From contig JABDMI010000102.1 in the NCBI GenBank assembly GCA_013001575.1, positions 1 through 47,993 on the forward strand: a DNA stretch of 47,993 bases, given 5' to 3'. Both the position numbers and the translations under genes were made by a program. Position 1 is the first letter of the stretch. Each line of letters starts with the position of its first letter. The notes beneath the pieces were generated by a model. It saw only the letters and a program-made list of their open reading frames with translations. It had not been told where the DNA came from and searched no databases. This DNA is from Gammaproteobacteria bacterium. Lineage in GTDB: Bacteria; Pseudomonadota; Gammaproteobacteria; Steroidobacterales; JABDMI01. This document shows, piece after piece, positions 16,544 to 26,460 of the stretch.

Positions 16544-17767
16544 TTAAAAATTTTTATGCAAAAATTCTTCCAGTCGATTGAACAGTATGTCCAGTTGCTC
16601 CAGATGGCCCAGGGTGACCACTCGAAAGTGATCATTACTCGATAAATTAAAGCCGGTTCCTTGTACCAGCAAACAATGCTGCTGATTCAAAAACTCCAAT
16701 ACGAACTTTTCATCATCCTTGATCGGATAACGCTCGGAGTCGAGCTTGGGGAATAAGTAGATTGCCCCTTTTGGCTGCACACAACTTAGACCTTCGATAG
16801 CGATTACTCGCTTATAGGCGTACTCAATTTGCTCGTACAAGCGTCCTTGAGGCAAGACCAGGTCATTGATACTTTGATAACCCCCCAGTGAGGTTTGTAC
16901 CGCGTATTGGCCTGGCGCATTGGCGCACAAACGCATGGAAACCATCATATCCAGGCCTTCGATATAGTCCGCCGCATGCAATTTGTCGCCGGACAGCACC
17001 ATCCAGCCAGAACGAAAACCGGCTAAACGATAGGCTTTGGATAAACCGTTAAAGCTCACACATAAAGTGTGCTCCACCAGGCTCGCCATGGGCGTATGTA
17101 TGGCATCATGATAAAGAATGCGGTCATAGATCTCGTCGGCAAAAACCACCAGACGGTGTTTTTCAGCCAGGGTGGCAATCTTTTGTAATACCTCTTTGGA
17201 ATATACCGCACCCGTTGGATTGTTGGGGTTGATAACGACAATCGCTTTGGTTTTTACTGTTATCTTGCTTTCGATGTCGCTTATATCCGGCTGCCAGTCC
17301 TTGGTTTCATCGCATTTGTAGTGTACGGGTTTCCCTCCGGCCAAAGACGTTGCAGCTGTCCATAGCGGATAATCCGGAGTCGGGATCAATACTTCATCGC
17401 CCTGGTTAAGCAAGGCCAGGGTAACAATGCCGATCAGTTCACTGACGCCATTACCCATGTAAATATCTTCAATCTCGGTATCCAGAAGTCCATCGAGTTG
17501 GCAGCGTTGCATAATGGCTTTGCGGGCTGAAAATATGCCTTTGGAGTCGGTATAGCCTTGGGCATTTTGCAAATTACGCACTACGTCCTGGATAATCTCT
17601 TCAGGCGCCTCGAAACCGAAATGTGCCGGGTTGCCAATATTAAACTTGTGCACACGCTGTCCGGACGCTTCCAGACGGTTAGCGGTTTGTAATACTGGAC
17701 CCCGGATTTCATAGCAAACGTCTTTAAGCTTATGCGCTTTGCTAAAGGGTTTTTCGGAAAGGGTCAT
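16544..17767 (-). CDS. alaA: Alanine transaminase-like aminotransferase (AlaA)
   Basis: A class I/II PLP aminotransferase of 407 residues, very close in pattern to AlaA, which makes alanine from pyruvate and glutamate. Visible motifs: NIGNPAHFGFEAPEEI (about 43-58), GYTDSKGIFSARKAI, the NPNNPTGAVYS segment, FADEIYDRILY and the PLP lysine in SFNGLSKAYRLAGFRSGWM. The start ATG overlaps the TGA of argH (ATGA), so it is translated as the last gene of the arginine operon. Because its donor, glutamate, is also the precursor of ornithine, control with the arginine genes is conceivable. A substrate other than alanine cannot be excluded. Confidence 0.88.
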   Translation of the reverse strand: MTLSEKPFSKAHKLKDVCYEIRGPVLQTANRLEASGQRVHKFNIGNPAHFGFEAPEEIIQDVVRNLQNAQGYTDSKGIFSARKAIMQRCQLDGLLDTEIEDIYMGNGVSELIGIVTLALLNQGDEVLIPTPDYPLWTAATSLAGGKPVHYKCDETKDWQPDISDIESKITVKTKAIVVINPNNPTGAVYSKEVLQKIATLAEKHRLVVFADEIYDRILYHDAIHTPMASLVEHTLCVSFNGLSKAYRLAGFRSGWMVLSGDKLHAADYIEGLDMMVSMRLCANAPGQYAVQTSLGGYQSINDLVLPQGRLYEQIEYAYKRVIAIEGLSCVQPKGAIYLFPKLDSERYPIKDDEKFVLEFLNQQHCLLVQGTGFNLSSNDHFRVVTLGHLEQLDILFNRLEEFLHKNF

Positions 17768-19101
17768 TTGAGTTGTTCCATTAGTGATGCAAGGCGTTGA
17801 CGCATTTCTTCAAGCATCAAATTGCCGTTTGCACCCGGTGAGTTTCTGTGCGCCAATGTATTGGTGATATCAGCAGATTGCATGGCGTCACTTTCTTGCA
17901 TTATGTCTTGATACACGTCACGAAAGGCTCTGCCTTGTTTAACCGCATCGACGGCCTGATCAGTCGCGTACATTTCAGAGCTGATGGCCTGTTGCATTTT
18001 TTCGGAATTGAATTGCATAGACTTGATCAGTTCGGGCAGTAGGCCTAAGGCTTGTAAACCGGTTTCCAACGCGCGCATTAAAGGTGCTTTGGTGAACTGC
18101 AGGTCACGATGATAACTTGATGGCAGTGACAAAATCCCCTGTAGTTCTGTGCTGGCTGCTTGCACGCTTGCATGTACTGCACGTAGGAGCTCAACACTGT
18201 CCGGATTTTTTTTGTTTGGCATGATCGATGAGCCGGTGGTGTATTCCTCCGGTAAATGCACAAAATCAAATTCTTGTGATGTGTATAAACTCAGATCCCA
18301 GGCCAGGCGTCTGAGATCCAGAGTACACATCGACATTGCTTGCAAAACCTGTAATTCGTACTTGCCGCGTGAGTTTTGCACATTTTGCGGGTTAATTTGT
18401 AAACGCTCAAAGCCGAGTTCTTGCGCCACTTGGTCTCGAGGCAAAGGCAGGTTGATCCCGAATCCCGACGCGGTGCCCAGTGGCGAAGCGTTTATCCAGT
18501 TAAGCGTGGATAATGTGAGTTCAAGATTTTCGATAAATGCTTCGGCAAATCCGGCCATCCATAAACCAACCGATGAGGGCATGGCGCGTTGTAAATGGGT
18601 GTAGCCCGGCAAAGGCAAGAACTCAAACTCGGTTGCTTTGTGCAAACAACTCAATGCAATCGCGTGACAGTTATGCGCAAGAATTTCCAGACGATCTCGC
18701 ATATACAATCTAATCGCCACCATGACCTGATCGTTGCGGCTGCGACCCGTATGCACTTTGCCACTCAATTCACCCAATACTTCGGAGAGGTACCACTCGA
18801 TGGCCGAATGTGAGTCTTCAAAACGCTGATCAAGGACAAATTCGCCATTCTCGAAATCTATCAAGAGTTGGCTTAAGGCCTGATGCAATTGTTGATATTC
18901 GATTTGACTCAAAACGCCAATAGTCAGCAGACCGTTAATGTGGGCTTGGCTGGCTTGAATGTCATATTGCATTAAAGCGCGATCCAAAATCACATCTTGA
19001 CCAGATAAAAACTCCATCAAGGCTTCACTGGGAAGGGTGCAAGTTGTGGATTTTTTCCAAAGTGGCGCATTTCGTATTATTTTGCTTGATTTATTGTTCA
19101 T
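17764..19101 (-). CDS. argH: Argininosuccinate lyase
   Basis: ArgH cleaves argininosuccinate to arginine and fumarate, the last step of arginine synthesis. The product has 445 residues. The fumarase/aspartase-superfamily signature GSSIMPNKKNP is clear at about residues 293-303, along with HTGRSRNDQV (about 117-126) and GYTHLQRAMPSS. It is slightly shorter than E. coli ArgH (457), as in the Xanthomonas type. It starts 55 bases after the argC stop and overlaps alaA by four bases. Confidence 0.96.
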   Translation of the reverse strand: MNNKSSKIIRNAPLWKKSTTCTLPSEALMEFLSGQDVILDRALMQYDIQASQAHINGLLTIGVLSQIEYQQLHQALSQLLIDFENGEFVLDQRFEDSHSAIEWYLSEVLGELSGKVHTGRSRNDQVMVAIRLYMRDRLEILAHNCHAIALSCLHKATEFEFLPLPGYTHLQRAMPSSVGLWMAGFAEAFIENLELTLSTLNWINASPLGTASGFGINLPLPRDQVAQELGFERLQINPQNVQNSRGKYELQVLQAMSMCTLDLRRLAWDLSLYTSQEFDFVHLPEEYTTGSSIMPNKKNPDSVELLRAVHASVQAASTELQGILSLPSSYHRDLQFTKAPLMRALETGLQALGLLPELIKSMQFNSEKMQQAISSEMYATDQAVDAVKQGRAFRDVYQDIMQESDAMQSADITNTLAHRNSPGANGNLMLEEMRQRLASLMEQLK

Positions 19102-19156: not shown

Positions 19157-20155
19157 TTAATCGCTCGTGTTAACGGTGAGTAAAGGCGCAAGTCCCAGTG
19201 CCAGGTTCATGTTTTGCAGCGCTTGTATGGCAGCGCCTTTGAGCAAGTTATCCAAGACACACACTAATCGGACATTCTTTCCATCCCGTTCATCAATGGC
19301 AAACCCGCCAATGATTGCACCAGGCTTTTTGGCAATGTCCTGAAGGAACGGTATTTCTTTTTGCACCTTGATCAGCTCATGGCCTTGGTAGGTTTGGGTG
19401 TATAGATCGAGCAGATCAGATGAACTGATCTTGCTGCTAAGTTCTGCGCTAACCGTCACACTTAAGCCTTGAAAATGGGGAGCAACGTGTGGCATGAAAT
19501 TTACCGCCCGACCAAGGTGTTTGGAGATCTCCTGTTCGTGCAGATGTCCGGCAAGTGCATAAGGTACTAGATTGTCTTTAAGTTTGTTCGGGTCGTTCTT
19601 GTCACTTGGTGTGCTGCCAGCACCACTGTAGCCGGAAACACCGAACACACTGGGTTTACCGCACAAGTGATCACGCAAGGGATAGAGAGCCAATTGTGCG
19701 GCGCTTGCATAACACCCCGGATTTGCGATCGACCTTGATTGCTGGAGTTGCAGAGTATTGAGTTCACTTAAACCGTACGACCAGCTGGTATCTGACAGGC
19801 TTTCAGCTATTTGACTGCATTGCATGCGATGATCAAATGACAAGTCGACAATGACTGCGCTTGCCGAGTGTTTACGAATTTCTTCCACATAGGTATGTGA
19901 AACATTATTAGGTAAAGCCAGGAACACCACATCCGCCTGTAATTCGCCAACCTCGGCAGGATTAAGCGCGGTAAAAGTTAAATTTGGGTCTGAAAACGAA
20001 GGAATCTGTGCCTGAACCTTTTTCCCACCCGCAGTACGGGAACTGACGGCCAGCAAATTACAATACGGGTGTTGGTCAAGCAGTTTGATCAACTCATTGC
20101 CCACATAACCTCGTGCGCCGATGATCGCAACCTTGTACTGTTTATGACTACTCAT
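19157..20155 (-). CDS. argC: N-acetyl-gamma-glutamyl-phosphate reductase
   Basis: ArgC reduces N-acetylglutamyl phosphate to the semialdehyde with NADPH, third step of the pathway. The product has 332 residues from ATG 20155. It has the NAD(P)-binding GARGYVGNELIKLL (about 14-27), the active-site cysteine in SIANPGCYASAAQLAL, the SGYSGAG stretch and HVAPHFQGLS. The frame is open to 20218, but ATG 20155 overlaps the TGA of the preceding gene (ATGA) and gives the family N-terminus, so the longer start is rejected. Confidence 0.95.
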   Translation of the reverse strand: MSSHKQYKVAIIGARGYVGNELIKLLDQHPYCNLLAVSSRTAGGKKVQAQIPSFSDPNLTFTALNPAEVGELQADVVFLALPNNVSHTYVEEIRKHSASAVIVDLSFDHRMQCSQIAESLSDTSWSYGLSELNTLQLQQSRSIANPGCYASAAQLALYPLRDHLCGKPSVFGVSGYSGAGSTPSDKNDPNKLKDNLVPYALAGHLHEQEISKHLGRAVNFMPHVAPHFQGLSVTVSAELSSKISSSDLLDLYTQTYQGHELIKVQKEIPFLQDIAKKPGAIIGGFAIDERDGKNVRLVCVLDNLLKGAAIQALQNMNLALGLAPLLTVNTSD

Positions 20156-21483
20156 GTGCGCACTACTTGCATGGAGTCTTTCCAGGCAGAACAACGTTGA
20201 AAGGCATCGTTTACGCAATCGTGCAAATAATCGAAATCCTTTACCCCGTAACTAAAACTCACCCATTGTTGGTTTTTCATACTGAAATCCGACTTGTGAT
20301 AATACCAGGGAGTAAAGGCATTGCTTTTACGCGAGCGCCAATACAATTGCGGACATTCTTTTTTTAATGCACGCCACAATGCCGCTGCATAACCCTTGCC
20401 ACGCGCTTCGGGGGTGACCGCGAATTTGTCGAGATAGGGCACTCCATTAAAGCCGGTAACCACCACAGCGGCAGCACCTCCAGACTCGGAGATCAGTACT
20501 TTATGAATCTCGTGTTGCTTGAAATAATCGTCTTTTAAGCTACGCGCAAACGCCGATTCGATCAAGCTTGTGAGTTCGCTTTCTTGCTGTTTGTTCAGCT
20601 GGGTAAGAACTTGAATATTTTCGCCCTGATTGATCAAGGTTCCAGCGCCGCGATGCGTGAATAGCTCACGCACCAGATGGTCTACCGAGGTTATCGACAC
20701 AGATGCGTTTGCGGGTAGGGGTTTGAGCAAGTCGTGTATTTGTTCCAGTTTAAGGCGCATCCCAGAATGCACCCAGTCGGCCTGCATCAAGTTGGCATAA
20801 TCATTTTTCAAACTAATTGCTGAGATGAGTTTATTGTCTTCATCCAATAGGCCACCTGTGGGTGTGATAAAAATTATTTTACTGGGCGAGATTGCCCAGA
20901 CCAGTTCGCGTGCGGCTACGTCGGCGTTGATGTTCACAACTTGTCCGGATGAGGTTTCGCCCAGGCTGGAGATCACCGGCAGCAGGTCGGCTTCAATGGC
21001 GTCGCGAATGCTGTCCAGATTAATGTGTTTGATCTTGCCAACCAGGCCGTAGCGTTCCTTGTCGTCATAGTCACAGGTGAACACACCGTGCTGCATGCCA
21101 ACTGCGCGCACCTGATGTTTTTCCAGGGTATTGACCAGATCACGATTCACTTTGTAAATAGTCGGGCGGACGACTTCCATCACCGCTTCACTGGTAACCC
21201 GGAATCCATCCACTTTATTTGAAGAGATGCCGGCCGCATTAATGGCCTGATCCAGCTGTGGTCCGGCACCATGGATCAATATAGGATGCAGGCCCAAGTG
21301 GCGCAACACAGAAAGGGCAGCACATAAGTCATCCAGGCGCTCATGGATTATGCCGCCGCCTACTTTGATCACGGCAAAACGCATTTCATCATTAACGTTG
21401 TATTGCTCGAGATAGTATTGCGCTTCATGACTGGAGCTTAACTGGCTTAGTACTTCTCGAATTAGTTGTCGGGTATGTTGCAT
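20152..21483 (-). CDS. argB: Bifunctional N-acetylglutamate kinase/synthase (Xanthomonas-type ArgA/B fusion)
   Basis: This 443-residue protein fuses an amino-acid kinase domain (about 30-290) to a C-terminal acetyltransferase domain (about 300-443). It should make N-acetylglutamate from acetyl-CoA and glutamate and then phosphorylate it, the first two steps of arginine synthesis. Kinase motifs are VIKVGGGII, HGAGPQLDQA, NINADVAARELV and FITPTGGLLD. The acetyltransferase part has TPEARGKGYAAALW (acetyl-CoA loop) and YWRSRKSNAFTPWYYHKS, the signature of the vertebrate-like NAGS/NAGK family known from Xanthomonas. In that family arginine inhibits the synthase, so feedback control is expected. 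No separate argA or argJ is in the window. The stop overlaps the argC start. Confidence 0.93.
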   Translation of the reverse strand: MQHTRQLIREVLSQLSSSHEAQYYLEQYNVNDEMRFAVIKVGGGIIHERLDDLCAALSVLRHLGLHPILIHGAGPQLDQAINAAGISSNKVDGFRVTSEAVMEVVRPTIYKVNRDLVNTLEKHQVRAVGMQHGVFTCDYDDKERYGLVGKIKHINLDSIRDAIEADLLPVISSLGETSSGQVVNINADVAARELVWAISPSKIIFITPTGGLLDEDNKLISAISLKNDYANLMQADWVHSGMRLKLEQIHDLLKPLPANASVSITSVDHLVRELFTHRGAGTLINQGENIQVLTQLNKQQESELTSLIESAFARSLKDDYFKQHEIHKVLISESGGAAAVVVTGFNGVPYLDKFAVTPEARGKGYAAALWRALKKECPQLYWRSRKSNAFTPWYYHKSDFSMKNQQWVSFSYGVKDFDYLHDCVNDAFQRCSAWKDSMQVVRT

Positions 21484-21529: not shown

Positions 21530-22609
21530 TCACGGTCGGGAAATTTTTTCGTAAAGTTCGAAGGCAGTCTGTAACTGGGTTTTTAATACAAATTCATCGG
21601 CACTGTGAGCCTGTTTGATGTCGCCGGGTCCAAGCACGATTGCAGGCAATCCGCCCGCATTGAACAGCGAGGCCTCGGTCCAGAATCCAACGGGTTCACC
21701 GGTCTTGAGGGCATGCCGTGTAATAAAGGCCTGCGAGGCTAGATTATCGTAACCCTTACTGGGCAAGGAGGGTCCAGCGAAAGAAGGATGCCACTCGATA
21801 TTCGCTTCAACAGGAGCACAGTCTTTGATGTCTAATAAAAACTGTTGCATGTCAGAACCGGGCGCGAGACGCGCACTCCATTTGCAGTAAGCACGGTCTG
21901 CACTGATGTTGCTTTTAATCCCGCCTTGCAGCACCCCGATGTTAAAGCGCGCGTTGCTATTGTTTTGATATTCCTGATTCACATAATCCAAAGCGGCTTG
22001 CGCCCAAGTCACCAAGTGGTGATTGGCGCTTTGGCGTAAGGCCTCAACATTCGAGGAGTGACCGGCAAGACCCGAGAAATCCATCGCTACAGACAAAAAA
22101 CCGCAATGTTCGGTAATGGCCTCGCAATTGGTGGGTTCGGCAACCACAGCTTGAGCATAGCCCTGACTGAATCCCGCTTGAATGAATTCACTGATGCAGA
22201 TGCCATCGGCGCCTTCTTCATCGGTGGTAAACAGGAAAGCCAGATCGCGTGAATCGAGTTTGGAAAGTTCAATCAAACAGGCGGCTGCACCTTTGATATC
22301 GCAACTGCCCAATCCGATGACGCGGTCTTGAATTTCAACAAGTTGATGTGGCGATTGAGTCCATTCATTGACTGCGGGTACGGTATCCAGATGCACATTA
22401 AACAGTATGTCCGGATTTCCACGCGTGGCGTAAAAGCTCACACTGCCATTGCCCAAATCAAAGATCTGGATGCTGAAGTCGGACAGAACTTTGGACAAAT
22501 ACAGGAAAATGTCACTATTCTCATGCAGGTCGCGTGGTGGATTCTGAGTGTCGTAGCCAACCAGAGCACGGGTATATTCAATGATATTGGCGAGATGCGA
22601 ATTGCTCAT
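21530..22609 (-). CDS. argE': N-acetyl-L-citrulline deacetylase (Xanthomonas ArgE' type)
   Basis: A 359-residue M20-family zinc hydrolase. Metal motifs are NVHLDTVPA (about 70-78), GLGSCDIKGAA (about 94-104) and TDEEGADG (about 128-135). It resembles Xanthomonas N-acetylcitrulline deacetylase more than E. coli ArgE, with VIGLGSCDIKGAAA and the C-terminal FWTEASLFNAGG and GPGDIKQAHSADEFV stretches. The presence of an N-acetylornithine carbamoyltransferase gene in the same operon makes acetylcitrulline the expected substrate, giving citrulline and acetate; acetylornithine may also be accepted. Its ATG overlaps the argG stop (ATGA). Confidence 0.9.
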   Translation of the reverse strand: MSNSHLANIIEYTRALVGYDTQNPPRDLHENSDIFLYLSKVLSDFSIQIFDLGNGSVSFYATRGNPDILFNVHLDTVPAVNEWTQSPHQLVEIQDRVIGLGSCDIKGAAACLIELSKLDSRDLAFLFTTDEEGADGICISEFIQAGFSQGYAQAVVAEPTNCEAITEHCGFLSVAMDFSGLAGHSSNVEALRQSANHHLVTWAQAALDYVNQEYQNNSNARFNIGVLQGGIKSNISADRAYCKWSARLAPGSDMQQFLLDIKDCAPVEANIEWHPSFAGPSLPSKGYDNLASQAFITRHALKTGEPVGFWTEASLFNAGGLPAIVLGPGDIKQAHSADEFVLKTQLQTAFELYEKISRP

Positions 22610-23826
22610 TGCGTGTTGTCCTTTTGTCGTCGCAATCGTTGCGCCATTACGGTGCTTTGCCCGCTGAGTTTAATAAAACCAACCGCTTCAGAGGGTGACC
22701 AGGTACAACTTTGGGCATACACGGCCTCCGGGTCTTGCAAAATGTGCTCACTCTCGATGTCTGTGGCCAGTAAGGATCCGCCCTCGGTTGATAAAGTGAC
22801 CGTGCCGTTGATGTAGGATTGGGAGTTACTCAAATACGCTTCAAGATCGTGCTTGTGAGGTTCGTAGAAATATCCGGTGTAAACCAACTCGGCCCAGCGT
22901 GCTGCAATTTGGGCATGAAACTGATTTTGCAATTTGGTATTGACGGTATTCATCAAGGCTTTATGTGCGATCAACAGGGCATCAATACCGGGGCATTCGA
23001 AAACGATACGACCTTTAAGCCCCAAGGAAACATCACCGGTGTAAATGTGTCTTCCCACACCATAAGCGCCGAGGCTTTTATTCAACTCCTGGATCATTTC
23101 CGGACCACTCACGGTTTGTCCGTTTAGCGCGACTGCAATTCCGTTTTGAAATGTCAGTTGAACCTGTAGAGACTGTAGTGGCCATTGGGCACGCGGTTTA
23201 CACCACACATACGCGTCTTCAGCGGGCGCTTTGAATTCATCGATCTCACTACCGGAAATGGTTATGCCAAGCAGATTTTCATTGATGGAGTAGCGTTTAC
23301 TTGAAGCGCTGATATCGACAGGCGTATTTTTCAAACACTCCAATTCAAAATCACGAACCTTGTCGACCTTTTCTTGTAATTCTCGTACAGGCGCATGAAT
23401 GACATAGTCACCCAGGCTCATCACGGTCAGGTCAAAACGCATTTGGTCATTACCCATACCGGTACAACCATGGGCAAAACGCTTGGTTTGCAACTGATCA
23501 CACAGTTCCAGACACAAGCGCACAATGACGTAGCGATCCGAGCACAGTAAGGGATATTCGCCCAACATGCGTGCGCCTGACCAGACCAGCGGTATTACGA
23601 ATTCATCCCAAATGGCCTGTTCGGCGTTTAAGGTGTGGTGTCGAGTAGAGCCGAGTAGTTGGGCGCGTTTTTCGATCTCGTCAATCTCGCTTTGCTCAAT
23701 CCCGCCTGTGGACACAAAAACCGTATGCACCTCGTAGCCATCCTTGACCAATTGCCAAAGACAATAGCAGGTGTCCAGACCACCGGAAAATGCGAGTACT
23801 AATTTATTATTTTCTATATTATTCAT
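22606..23826 (-). CDS. argG: Argininosuccinate synthase
   Basis: ArgG joins citrulline and aspartate to argininosuccinate with ATP. The product has 406 residues, with the PP-loop LAFSGGLDTCYCLW (about 11-24), the CTGMGNDQMRFD segment (about 120-131) and an N-terminal Rossmann-like ATP pyrophosphatase fold. It starts 9 bases after the argF' stop and its TGA overlaps the argE' ATG, so it is firmly inside the operon. It uses the citrulline released by argE'. Confidence 0.95.
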   Translation of the reverse strand: MNNIENNKLVLAFSGGLDTCYCLWQLVKDGYEVHTVFVSTGGIEQSEIDEIEKRAQLLGSTRHHTLNAEQAIWDEFVIPLVWSGARMLGEYPLLCSDRYVIVRLCLELCDQLQTKRFAHGCTGMGNDQMRFDLTVMSLGDYVIHAPVRELQEKVDKVRDFELECLKNTPVDISASSKRYSINENLLGITISGSEIDEFKAPAEDAYVWCKPRAQWPLQSLQVQLTFQNGIAVALNGQTVSGPEMIQELNKSLGAYGVGRHIYTGDVSLGLKGRIVFECPGIDALLIAHKALMNTVNTKLQNQFHAQIAARWAELVYTGYFYEPHKHDLEAYLSNSQSYINGTVTLSTEGGSLLATDIESEHILQDPEAVYAQSCTWSPSEAVGFIKLSGQSTVMAQRLRRQKDNTQ

Positions 23827-23835
23827 TAAGATATG

Positions 23836-24837
23836 TTAATTATTTAAAAGATTTATCATTAAGGATTTTTGCACATGCAAGCGATTTTCCGCTTCATCTA
23901 TCGCTAAACAATAGTCAGCATCCATCACCGCATCGGTGGCTTGAATATTCCGCCGTAGCGGCAAACAATGACTGAAATAGGCGTTATTGGTCAGAGCCAT
24001 TTTTTTCTCATCGACGGTGAAATGCTTATATTGCTGACGATGCGCCTGTTCGGTCTTGACGTCGCCATATAAATCCAGCGAGCCCCAACTTTTGGCATAC
24101 ACCACATCGGCATCAGCGTAAGCGCTTTCGATATCGTGACTGAGTGTGAAACTACCTCCATGGGCGCTGGTGAACTCTTGGGCTTTATCGAGATAGTGTG
24201 AATCGAGTAAGTAATGCTGATCCGGGTATAGCAGGGTTACATCCATGCCGAATTTGCTCGCAATCAGTAGCGCCGAGTTAGCGACCGCGGTATTCAAGGG
24301 TTTGGGATGATAAGCCCAGGTCAGCACAAACTTTTTGTTCTGCACCGAGCCGAGCTTTTCTTGCAGTGTTTGCATAAGCGCCAGTTCTTGGCAAGGATGC
24401 ACTATGGTTTCCATATTGATCACCGGAACACTGGAATGCTGGGCCAAAGCATTGATCAGAAGGTCTTGGCGGTCTACAGACCAGTCGGTGAAACTGGGGA
24501 AAGCTCTTAGCGCGATCAGGTCACAATAGCGAGAAAGAACTCCGGCGACTTCAATGATGTGCTCTTCGGCGTCGCCGTCCATGATTACATTGGGTTTGAA
24601 TTCGATGCCCCAGGCGTCTTTACCCGGTTGCAATACCACAGCAATTCCGCCCAATTGTTGCATGCCGATCTCAAACGAGGTGCGAGTTCGCAAGGAAGAG
24701 TTCAAAAACAACATTGCGATAGACTTTCCTTCGAGCGCCTTATTCAAGGGACTCTGTTTTAATTCGCTCGCCAGATCCAGGATCTTTTGCAGATCATCCT
24801 GGCTCCAGTTCTCGGTGCTTAAAAAATGCTTTTCCAT
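23836..24837 (-). CDS. argF': N-acetylornithine carbamoyltransferase (AOTCase)
   Basis: This enzyme transfers a carbamoyl group to N-acetylornithine, giving N-acetylcitrulline, instead of the usual ornithine reaction. From ATG 24837 it has 333 residues starting MEKHFLSTENW, which matches the Xanthomonas AOTCase N-terminus; the frame extends to 24909 but those codons overlap the leader terminator and are not homologous. Carbamoyl-phosphate motif SLRTRTSFE is at about 48-56. The segment LQPGKDAWGIEF and the Glu at 91 in MDGDAEEH correspond to the acetyl-group recognition region and to E92 of the Xanthomonas enzyme; the succinylornithine enzymes lack this Glu. HCLPLRRN is near the C-terminus. 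It is first in the operon, behind an Arg-rich leader ORF and terminator. Confidence 0.94.
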   Translation of the reverse strand: MEKHFLSTENWSQDDLQKILDLASELKQSPLNKALEGKSIAMLFLNSSLRTRTSFEIGMQQLGGIAVVLQPGKDAWGIEFKPNVIMDGDAEEHIIEVAGVLSRYCDLIALRAFPSFTDWSVDRQDLLINALAQHSSVPVINMETIVHPCQELALMQTLQEKLGSVQNKKFVLTWAYHPKPLNTAVANSALLIASKFGMDVTLLYPDQHYLLDSHYLDKAQEFTSAHGGSFTLSHDIESAYADADVVYAKSWGSLDLYGDVKTEQAHRQQYKHFTVDEKKMALTNNAYFSHCLPLRRNIQATDAVMDADYCLAIDEAENRLHVQKSLMINLLNN

Positions 24838-24894: not shown

Positions 24895-24920
24895 AAAAAA
24901 ACCCGGCATTTAGCCGGGTT
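24895..24920 (-). terminator. Rho-independent terminator in the argF' leader (attenuator)
   Basis: On the minus strand AACCCGGC (24920-24913), loop TAAAT, GCCGGGTT (24907-24900), then a T-run. It lies inside the 5' leader, 58 bases before the argF' ATG and 25 bases after the stop of the Arg-rich leader ORF. No gene ends here from upstream, so its position suits attenuation, not gene-end termination. Confidence 0.88.
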
Positions 24921-24945
24921 ATGTAAATATGTTATGAAATCTTTA

Positions 24946-25035
24946 TCAACTATATTTACCCGGCATAAATAAACGCGCACGCGCTGGTCGAGGGCGTGCC
25001 GGAGCGGCTGGGCGGATTGCGCTGATAAACGTCAT
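24946..25035 (-). CDS. Arg-rich leader peptide of the arginine operon (29 aa)
   Basis: A short ORF, ATG at 25035 to TGA at 24948-24946, reads 29 residues beginning MTFISAIRPAAPAR and ending KYS. Arginine is at positions 8, 14, 16, 19 and 21 (codons CGC, CGC, CGA, CGT, CGT), with Pro and Ala between. It precedes the leader terminator of argF'. Segment CCGGCA (25002-24997) can pair with TGCCGG (24965-24960); GCCGGGT (24964-24958) can instead pair with ACCCGGC, the first arm of the terminator (24919-24913). This is the protector/antiterminator/terminator set of classical attenuation: ribosomes stalled at Arg codons free the antiterminator and allow transcription. No convincing Shine-Dalgarno sequence precedes the ATG, the main weakness. 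Confidence 0.72.
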   Translation of the reverse strand: MTFISAIRPAAPARPRPARARLFMPGKYS

Positions 25036-25275
25036 GGATTGGACTGTACAGAAGTAATTACTGCATGGCAACAAATAATTAAATTACAAATGTAACTAAA
25101 TATCGAGGGAAAATCGCCAAAGCAATGAGATTGTGGGTTGTTGTCATAACTGTGAAATTTACATAAACCGGATTAACTGGATTTGTAAACACCTCACGCT
25201 GTGTCTTTCCCTAATAAAGTAACGTATGATTCGCGATGATTTTTTAGAATTTAATTTGATGGACGAATTACTTTT

Positions 25276-26460
25276 ATGCAACTTTCAGAACTCATTCAAA
25301 TCGCCGATTCACAATTGCTTAGCGTAACCAAACGCCACAATGCCGTCATGCAATCGGGCAAGGGCATGCGAATGACCGATACAGCAGGCAATGAGTATCT
25401 GGACTTTGTAGGTGGCTGGGCAGTGACCTGTTTGGGGCATTCGCCGATGGCTATTATTGATGCCATAACCGAACAGGCAGATCAATTGATCAATTCGAGT
25501 CCGTCCTATTACAACCTGCCCATGTTGGAATACACCAAGCTGCTGGTTGATAACACTTGTCTGGATCGTGTGTTTTTTGCGTCGTCTGGAGCCGAAGCCA
25601 ATGAAGGCGCCATTAAGCTGGCTCGCAAGTACGGTCAGAAGCACAAAAATGGCGCCTATGAGATTATCACCACCAGCAACGCATTTCATGGCCGTACTCT
25701 AACTACCATGGCAGCCACTGGCAAAGCCAAATGGAAAGATCTGTACGAACCCAAGACCAAGGGCTTTAAGCAAGCGGTTTTTAACGACCTGGAATCGGTT
25801 GCATCCTTGGTCAATGAAAACACCGTGGCTATCATGCTTGAACCAGTACAAGGCGAGGGTGGTGTGAATGTTGCCACCCAAGAGTTTATGCAGGGCCTAC
25901 GCAATCTGTGTGACGAGCAAGGCTTATTGTTGATCCTGGACGAAGTACAAACCGGCTTTGGGCGTACGGGCAAACTGTTTGCCTACGAGCACTACGGGAT
26001 TGAGCCCGACATCATGAGTCTGGCCAAAGGAATCGCCGGTGGGTTTCCTTTATCCGCTTTGCTGGCCAAAGAATTCTTGAATATATTTGAAGCGGGAGAC
26101 CAGGGCGCTACCTACAGCAGTCAACCCCTGGGCATGGCGGTGGGTAAGGCTGTACTGCAGGAATTGTTGGACAAGGATATTCCCGAACACGCCGCCCACA
26201 TGGGCCGGTATTTAAAATCCATGCTGCAAGAGCTTTCCGAGATTTACCGCATTTCCAATATTCGTGGAGAAGGCTTATTGCTGGCCTTTGATGTGGGTAG
26301 CAATATTGCCGGCAAGATCTCGGACCAGTGTTTTGCCAATGGACTGTTGATCAATGCCTGTAAGCCCGATTCCTTGCGACTGATGCCGCCCTTGATCGTG
26401 AATAAAAACGAGATCGACGAGATGTTGGAAATAGTCGCTCAATTCCTCACCAGGCGATAA
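25276..26460 (+). CDS. argD: Acetylornithine aminotransferase
   Basis: ArgD converts N-acetylglutamate semialdehyde to N-acetylornithine with glutamate as amino donor. The product has 394 residues of the class III PLP aminotransferase family. Motifs: FVGGWAVTCLGH near 44-55, SSGAEANEGAIKLAR (about 101-115), FHGRTL, EPVQGEGGV, LILDEVQTGFGRTG and the PLP lysine in SLAKGIAGGFPLSALLA. It is divergent from the arg operon and supplies the enzyme missing from it. No good ribosome-binding site is seen. A terminator follows about 60 bases after the stop. Confidence 0.93.
   Translation: MQLSELIQIADSQLLSVTKRHNAVMQSGKGMRMTDTAGNEYLDFVGGWAVTCLGHSPMAIIDAITEQADQLINSSPSYYNLPMLEYTKLLVDNTCLDRVFFASSGAEANEGAIKLARKYGQKHKNGAYEIITTSNAFHGRTLTTMAATGKAKWKDLYEPKTKGFKQAVFNDLESVASLVNENTVAIMLEPVQGEGGVNVATQEFMQGLRNLCDEQGLLLILDEVQTGFGRTGKLFAYEHYGIEPDIMSLAKGIAGGFPLSALLAKEFLNIFEAGDQGATYSSQPLGMAVGKAVLQELLDKDIPEHAAHMGRYLKSMLQELSEIYRISNIRGEGLLLAFDVGSNIAGKISDQCFANGLLINACKPDSLRLMPPLIVNKNEIDEMLEIVAQFLTRR

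Follow-up and report, generated by a model that had tools for sequence, protein, structure and literature searches.

The locus analysed here raises the question of how an arginine biosynthetic operon is controlled in a gammaproteobacterium that has no ArgR. Arginine control in the Gammaproteobacteria is generally described in terms of this repressor, which is conserved in many gammaproteobacterial groups (PMC5343134), and the ArgR-less genomes studied here carry what appears to be an RNA device before the same pathway. The window, that is, the whole stretch of 47,993 nucleotides that was analysed, is contig C102 of an assembly of 2.25 Mb in 132 contigs that is 96% complete. Our results suggest that in bacteria without ArgR the argF' operon is likely to be controlled by an arginine-specific, ribosome-mediated transcription attenuator. 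The sequence elements of such a device, their conservation, covariation and geometry, and the absence of ArgR are shown in what follows.

The operon itself is an array of genes on one strand, in the order argF'-argG-argE'-argB(NAGK/S)-argC-argH-aminotransferase and with tight spacing:

23836-24837, minus strand: argF', N-acetylornithine carbamoyltransferase, which opens the operon proposed to be controlled (NF003384, 526 bits, cut-off 288)
22606-23826, minus strand: argG, argininosuccinate synthase (NF003385, 541 bits, under its cut-off of 603)
21530-22609, minus strand: argE', deacetylase (NF006439)
20152-21483, minus strand: argB-type acetylglutamate kinase (NAGK/S) with a C-terminal acetyltransferase-like part (NF003387)
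19157-20218, minus strand: argC (TIGR01850), given as the open frame, its true start possibly lying further in
17764-19101, minus strand: argH, argininosuccinate lyase (TIGR00838)
16544-17767, minus strand: aminotransferase, last gene of the array (alanine-aminotransferase-like match below cut-off)

The start of argF' is the ATG at 24837 and not the first ATG of its open frame. The terminal aminotransferase (16544-17767, minus strand) is of the alanine/tyrosine type and overlaps argH by 4 nt; argD is separate and divergent, at 25276-26460, and no Arg leader was seen for it.

Ahead of argF' lie a short ORF and an intrinsic terminator:

25035-24946, minus strand: leader-peptide ORF of 29 codons and a stop, encoding MTFISAIRPAAPARPRPARARLFMPGKYS
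24973-24996, minus strand: main Arg-codon cluster and predicted stall site (codons 14-21, CGC CCT CGA CCA GCG CGT GCG CGT)
24900-24920, minus strand: intrinsic terminator stem-loop, AACCCGGCTAAATGCCGGGTT, with a T-run at its end

The Arg codons of the ORF are numbers 8, 14, 16, 19 and 21 (CGC, CGC, CGA, CGT and CGT), five within 14 positions, and 25 nt separate its stop from the terminator. An earlier sequence-only reading had proposed this ORF as the leader of a seven-gene array on the minus strand, with four pairing segments (A to D) deciding termination; its account of the array, the ORF coordinates, the number of Arg codons, the positions of the four segments, the 25-nt gap and the terminator with its T-run all held. 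Folding of the entire window leader gives z = -3.4. By itself, the cluster of Arg codons is only borderline unusual (p = 0.057; 5.7% of dinucleotide shuffles hold an equally Arg-dense short ORF), and the case is carried by the comparison with relatives.

Relatives of argF' were taken from contig sequences and whole genomes, giving 94 usable loci. In 73 of them, a count from which two weaker automatic picks were removed, a short Arg-rich ORF is followed by an intrinsic terminator and then by argF', with the stop codon about 30 nt before the terminator. These loci span Lysobacterales-type MAGs, Marinicella, Aliikangiella and Xanthomonas. Two genomes of the same genus (L003 and L004), whose argF' are 82% and 80% identical, share the homologous leader MN[FY]SKA[IL]APAFPRRRPA[DA]VTVLLLG[KR]YCC, then a terminator. 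Other examples are ...VVVRRRRPVKRMELFG before the stop in Marinicella, ...IRRRRRR... and ...YLRRSW...PGWVAM before the stop in Lysobacterales MAGs, ...ISVVRRRRTYWAGCDGV before the stop in Aliikangiella coralliicola, and, in Xanthomonadaceae-type leaders including that of Xanthomonas sacchari, ...ARMASGMTSRARRPE[SP]H..AG before the stop, with [..]SRARRP[..]AG before the stop in loci L112-L115. The arrangement is specific: when both strands of the fetched loci were considered, an Arg-rich ATG ORF was found before 59 of 60 argF' terminators, as against 10 of 104 others. Comparisons within 13 sets of gap-free relatives found Arg kept in 83% of cases and other residues in 55%; in the two alternative reading frames, the figures for Arg were 53% and 43%. 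No excess of differences at the third codon position was found in the leaders (250/229/251 by codon position); this even spread means that there is no protein-type selection on the peptide itself, and the features kept in the leaders are the Arg codons and the RNA pairing. A search of NCBIfam and Pfam with four leader peptides gave no match. It is also common across relatives for the leader Arg run to be followed by Pro (RRP, RRRRP), and a slow Arg-Pro step might contribute to the stall.

The choice of Arg codons is itself biased. CGU, CGC and CGA make up 89% of leader Arg codons, whereas the long ORFs at these loci would predict 64%; CGA occurs about 3 times as often as expected (98 times versus 33), and CGG, AGA and AGG are under-represented. 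A single tRNA-Arg, carrying inosine at position 34, decodes CGU, CGC and CGA, the last of them slowly. That these three codons serve as the sensor is an inference.

The RNA pairing involves three segments, with an extension in the window genome:

24958-24965, minus strand: segment B (TGCCGGGT), 5' arm of the antiterminator, predicted to lie under a ribosome that has reached the stop codon (pairing; folding with ribosome)
24952-24958, minus strand: TAAATAT, 5' side of a helix extending the antiterminator hairpin in the window genome, predicted to pair with ATATTTA on ribosome stalling at R14-R19
24924-24930, minus strand: ATATTTA, 3' side of the antiterminator extension (folding)
24913-24919, minus strand: segment C (ACCCGGC), common to antiterminator (B:C) and terminator (C:D) (pairing; covariation)
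24901-24907, minus strand: segment D (GCCGGGT), 3' arm of the terminator, followed by the T-run (pairing; covariation)

Segment B is a near-copy of D, and C can pair with either. In the window, B:C pairing amounts to -16.2 kcal/mol (p = 0.005 against shuffles) and the terminator to -13.8 kcal/mol. In a duplex test across the 73 loci, B:C beats shuffles with a median z of -3.1, 53 of the 73 at p<0.05. Moreover, B, C and D vary jointly between lineages (GCTGGG/CCCAGC/GCTGGG, GCCGGG/CCCGGC/GCCGGG, GCCAGG/CCTGGT/GCCAGG, GTCGGG/CCCGAC/GTCGGG): in 12 distinct triples every cell of both helices is paired, two-sided changes occur at three positions of B:C and four of C:D, and the covariation scores exceed those of all 500 shuffles. 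A bias must be considered here, since the search for B used its ability to pair with C, and loci whose B core is bulged were left out of the count; as a guard against it, together with the shuffles, non-matching C partners were tried, and a locus's own C was favoured in 57 of 73. In Marinicella B is different: it is CTCTTTGG, again at the ORF's end, and its partner is CCAAAGA, in the 5' arm and loop of the terminator.

The geometry also fits. The median distance from the first clustered Arg codon to the start of B is 29 nt. If the edge of the ribosome is taken to lie 13 nt from the A site, B is covered in 73 of 73 loci once the ribosome stands at the stop codon. When the window leader was folded as it would be before D is made, a ribosome at R14, R16 or R19 left a long antiterminator, GCCGGGUAAAUAU...AUAUUUAC(AUAA)CCCGGC, whereas with a ribosome at the stop no antiterminator formed, so that the terminator is predicted to ensue. 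In equilibrium folding with a ribosome mask and with D present, the terminator often wins despite a stall at Arg (the median of the lowest P(term) is 0.44), and the model therefore hinges on B:C forming first, folding being ordered as in known attenuators.

The sequence-only reading had further claimed that segment A, by a 6-bp pairing, sequesters B. The A:B pairing is present in the sequence, but as a protector it is unsupported both in the window, where B pairs with upstream RNA scarcely more than it does in shuffles (0.51 versus 0.46), and in relatives, where such pairing exceeds the control in 40 of 73 loci, with medians of 0.67 and 0.67. Since A:B does no better than shuffles, we describe the switch as one of three segments. 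The B:C antiterminator and C:D terminator of that reading held by pairing, covariation and folding, and the check that it proposed, a search in relatives for a conserved ORF with clustered Arg codons and for covarying pairs, is positive for the ORF and for B, C and D. Its inference that the supply of arginyl-tRNA controls the operon is supported by the comparison, being right in substance though wrong about A:B. What it overlooked is the probable leaderless nature of the ORF, which is suggested by the promoter:

25043-25071, minus strand: sigma70-type promoter, TTGCCA-17-TACAGT, its -10 box ending 7 nt ahead of the leader ATG

With the -10 box 7 nt ahead of the ATG, transcription is predicted to start at or beside the leader ATG, and the leader ORF of the window is likely to be leaderless, beginning at the 5' end of the mRNA, with the reservation that this start is inferred from the promoter. 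A spacing of 5-9 nt between the best promoter-like site and an in-frame start is seen in 27 of 73 loci and in 2.1% of shuffles, and the form TTGCAA-17-TANATT is frequent among the loci; in other clades the spacing from promoter to start is about 25 or 45 nt. A precedent for a leaderless attenuator is trpL of Sinorhizobium meliloti (rnTrpL/peTrpL, PMC7298713), where the 5' end of the attenuator transcript is the ATG of the leader ORF and the operon likewise has no repressor, but which senses tryptophan and belongs to the Alphaproteobacteria.

The distribution of ArgR was examined in 59 genomes, that of the window included. None of the 17 with the close argF' type has the ArgR N-terminal domain (PF01316), and the leader is present in 16 of them (one locus, L088, is unclear). 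All 32 genomes with a carbamoyltransferase of the 37-40% identical type have ArgR, about 5 kb from the carbamoyltransferase gene, and no leader-terminator unit was found at 13 loci from ArgR-bearing genomes. The remaining 10 of the 59 have neither ArgR nor a strong argF' match; these genomes of the same order (G011, G015, G024, G028, G031, G036, G039, G046, G050 and G056) may be auxotrophic for arginine or incompletely assembled. Of 370 genomes of the class, 14 score above the NF003384 cut-off, nine with ArgR and five without, and the leader is found in all five of the latter (the window's, three of family f26, and G374). The C-terminal domain of ArgR (PF02863) was not found in any of 21 searched genomes of the close argF' type, nor was ArgR found in 22 further genomes, Wenzhouxiangella without a leader included. 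Several of the ArgR-less genomes are incomplete MAGs, and the pattern rests on their agreement and not on single genomes. Lack of ArgR thus coincides with possession of the leader, but some lineages seem to have neither. The sequence-only reading had seen no ArgR box at this locus, and the ArgR protein is missing from this genome and its kin.

A leader with terminator was not detected in 19 of the 94 loci, mostly of Wenzhouxiangella type. Loci of this kind (L033, L034, L038, L044, L051, L054, L058, L061, L062, L064, L068, L070 and L075, mostly Wenzhouxiangella-type) come from genomes that, where tested, have no ArgR, and in some of them argF' lies behind the end of an S4-domain-like gene. At the SAR86 locus (L081), the ORF MNIVTRSLNQEILLKKLSSTVAFAPCSTPTRRRRRSI, with five consecutive Arg codons, ends 39 nt before the argF' match with no terminator detected; it could represent a translational version of Arg control. 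At L035, an Arg-rich ORF, MNRALSFEFVPATVRRSPRRRRMMPVARGWSSR, lies about 209-107 nt before the argF' match, again with no terminator detected; it was scored as lacking the leader-terminator unit, although the similar leader of L047 has the complete unit. No Arg leader was found before carA in ten genomes with a carA match. Most examined genomes (carA of the window genome, L148, and L143-L152) have a G+C-rich hairpin and then a T-rich stretch roughly 60-110 nt before the carA match, for example GGGACGAGC..GCTCGTCCCGCTTTCT in L143, where there is no Arg-rich ORF; a pyrimidine-type attenuator is one possibility. In an Rfam scan of the window only three tRNAs reached the gathering score, and matches in the leader lay below it at chance level; those to Trp_leader and Leu_leader were sub-threshold and were rejected.

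In the mechanism that we favour, the stalling, the termination and the response to arginine are all inferred, and there are no expression data. RNA polymerase would start at or beside the leader ATG, as inferred from the promoter, and a ribosome would load at the 5' end of the mRNA without a Shine-Dalgarno site. With ample charged tRNA-Arg, the ribosome would reach the stop codon and cover B; C would then be free to pair with D, and transcription would stop before argF'. With charged tRNA-Arg scarce, mainly the isoacceptor for CGU/CGC/CGA, the ribosome would wait in the Arg run and leave B exposed, B:C would form before D is made, and transcription would proceed into argF'-argG-argE'-argB-argC-argH. 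A bolder reading is that a broad set of Gammaproteobacteria, including Xanthomonas-type bacteria, lacks ArgR and uses an attenuator that reads mainly one isoacceptor (CGU/CGC/CGA), with the slow CGA as sensor and partly leaderless; whether it applies in this full form could, in our view, go either way.

Other explanations fare worse. One is that of an arrest peptide, in which the nascent chain would stall the ribosome on binding free arginine, or ornithine or another related metabolite, and the position of the stall would set the terminator. Motifs are indeed conserved within clades (VVVRRRRP in Marinicella, SRARRPEPH in Xanthomonadaceae-type leaders) and Pro often comes next after Arg. However, little except Arg is shared across clades (non-Arg retention is 0.55, with no third-position excess), and the response would run in the wrong direction: with a ribosome held in the Arg run, B is exposed and antitermination favoured, so that an excess of arginine would raise synthesis. 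We consider this very unlikely, and hold the same view of a general sensor of translation stress, in which slow, CGA-rich Arg runs would report the rate of translation or the activity of EF-P or ABC-F proteins and not arginine. The roughly 3-fold over-use of CGA and the frequency of Arg-Pro speak for it, but the leader codons specify the very amino acid that the operon makes, the leader accompanies the arginine operon and was not seen ahead of carA in any of the ten genomes looked at, and ArgR is missing from these genomes.

Two further alternatives are, in our view, extremely unlikely. An ordinary terminator, for instance one that ends antisense or upstream transcription, accompanied by an Arg-rich frame arisen by chance and with argF' having a promoter of its own downstream, would accord with the p of 0.057 for the window's Arg cluster and with Arg frames being common in high-GC DNA, but the unit is conserved in 73 loci with the specificity given above (59/60 versus 10/104) and with B, C and D co-changing, the upstream neighbour argD points away from the leader, and a promoter precedes the leader ORF. 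An arginine riboswitch, whose aptamer would control the terminator with the ORF being irrelevant, could draw on the existence of a terminator with an alternative fold, but Rfam gave no match that reached the gathering score, no conserved fold besides the B/C/D helices was seen, and the Arg codons are kept in frame.

An attenuator reading arginyl-tRNA thus remains our preferred explanation. No arginine biosynthetic operon under ribosome-mediated attenuation was found in the open-access literature that we searched; coverage of the older literature was incomplete, and the novelty is provisional. A survey of Actinobacteria saw no arginine attenuation there and named T-boxes for arginine elsewhere (PMC1262725). 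If the proposal is true, arginine joins the amino acids sensed by attenuators of biosynthetic operons, and the regulation of arg genes in Xanthomonas-type bacteria would be explained. The swap of a DNA-binding repressor for an attenuator becomes directly studyable, and more than 70 natural variants are available for asking how leaderless ORFs and CGA codons set the sensitivity of an attenuator.

Among known systems, ArgR/AhrC does the same job, arginine control of arg genes, but is a DNA-binding protein and was not found in the leader-bearing genomes searched. The speF leader of Salmonella (orf34, PMC6386406) also has two consecutive Arg codons, and ribosome pausing at low arginine alters the fold of its mRNA; however, its target is ornithine decarboxylase, which it controls by way of RNase G decay, Rho and translation, with no intrinsic terminator before an arginine biosynthetic operon. 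Enterobacterial SpeFL is an arrest-peptide leader. In Pseudomonas aeruginosa, a leader peptide and stem-loop likewise precede a gene for arginine and pyrimidine supply, carAB (cited in PMC4997734), but attenuation there is ascribed to pyrimidine, and arginine exerts its effect at the level of transcription. The fungal arginine attenuator peptide (the uORF of arg-2/CPA1) makes an arginine gene responsive to arginine as an arrest peptide acting on translation, and its logic is opposite to that of the argF' leader.

The closest likeness is to the trp, his, leu, ilv, phe and thr attenuators (trpL, hisL, etc.), which have a short ORF with clustered codons for the end product, a terminator ahead of the first structural gene, and an antiterminator and terminator made mutually exclusive by a common arm, with a ribosome at the stall site or at the stop deciding between them. 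Unlike them, the argF' leader would sense arginine and is found where ArgR is absent, it has no detectable 1:2 protector hairpin, and the family is partly leaderless; a 1:2 hairpin occurs in trp and his but not in every attenuator, and its lack was not counted as excluding membership. Although dependence on leader translation and on tRNA charging is inferred, the features that were tested make it likely that the argF' leader belongs with the trp/his-type attenuators, as a variant marked by its arginine specificity, its bias towards CGU/CGC/CGA, its partly leaderless character and the absence of ArgR.
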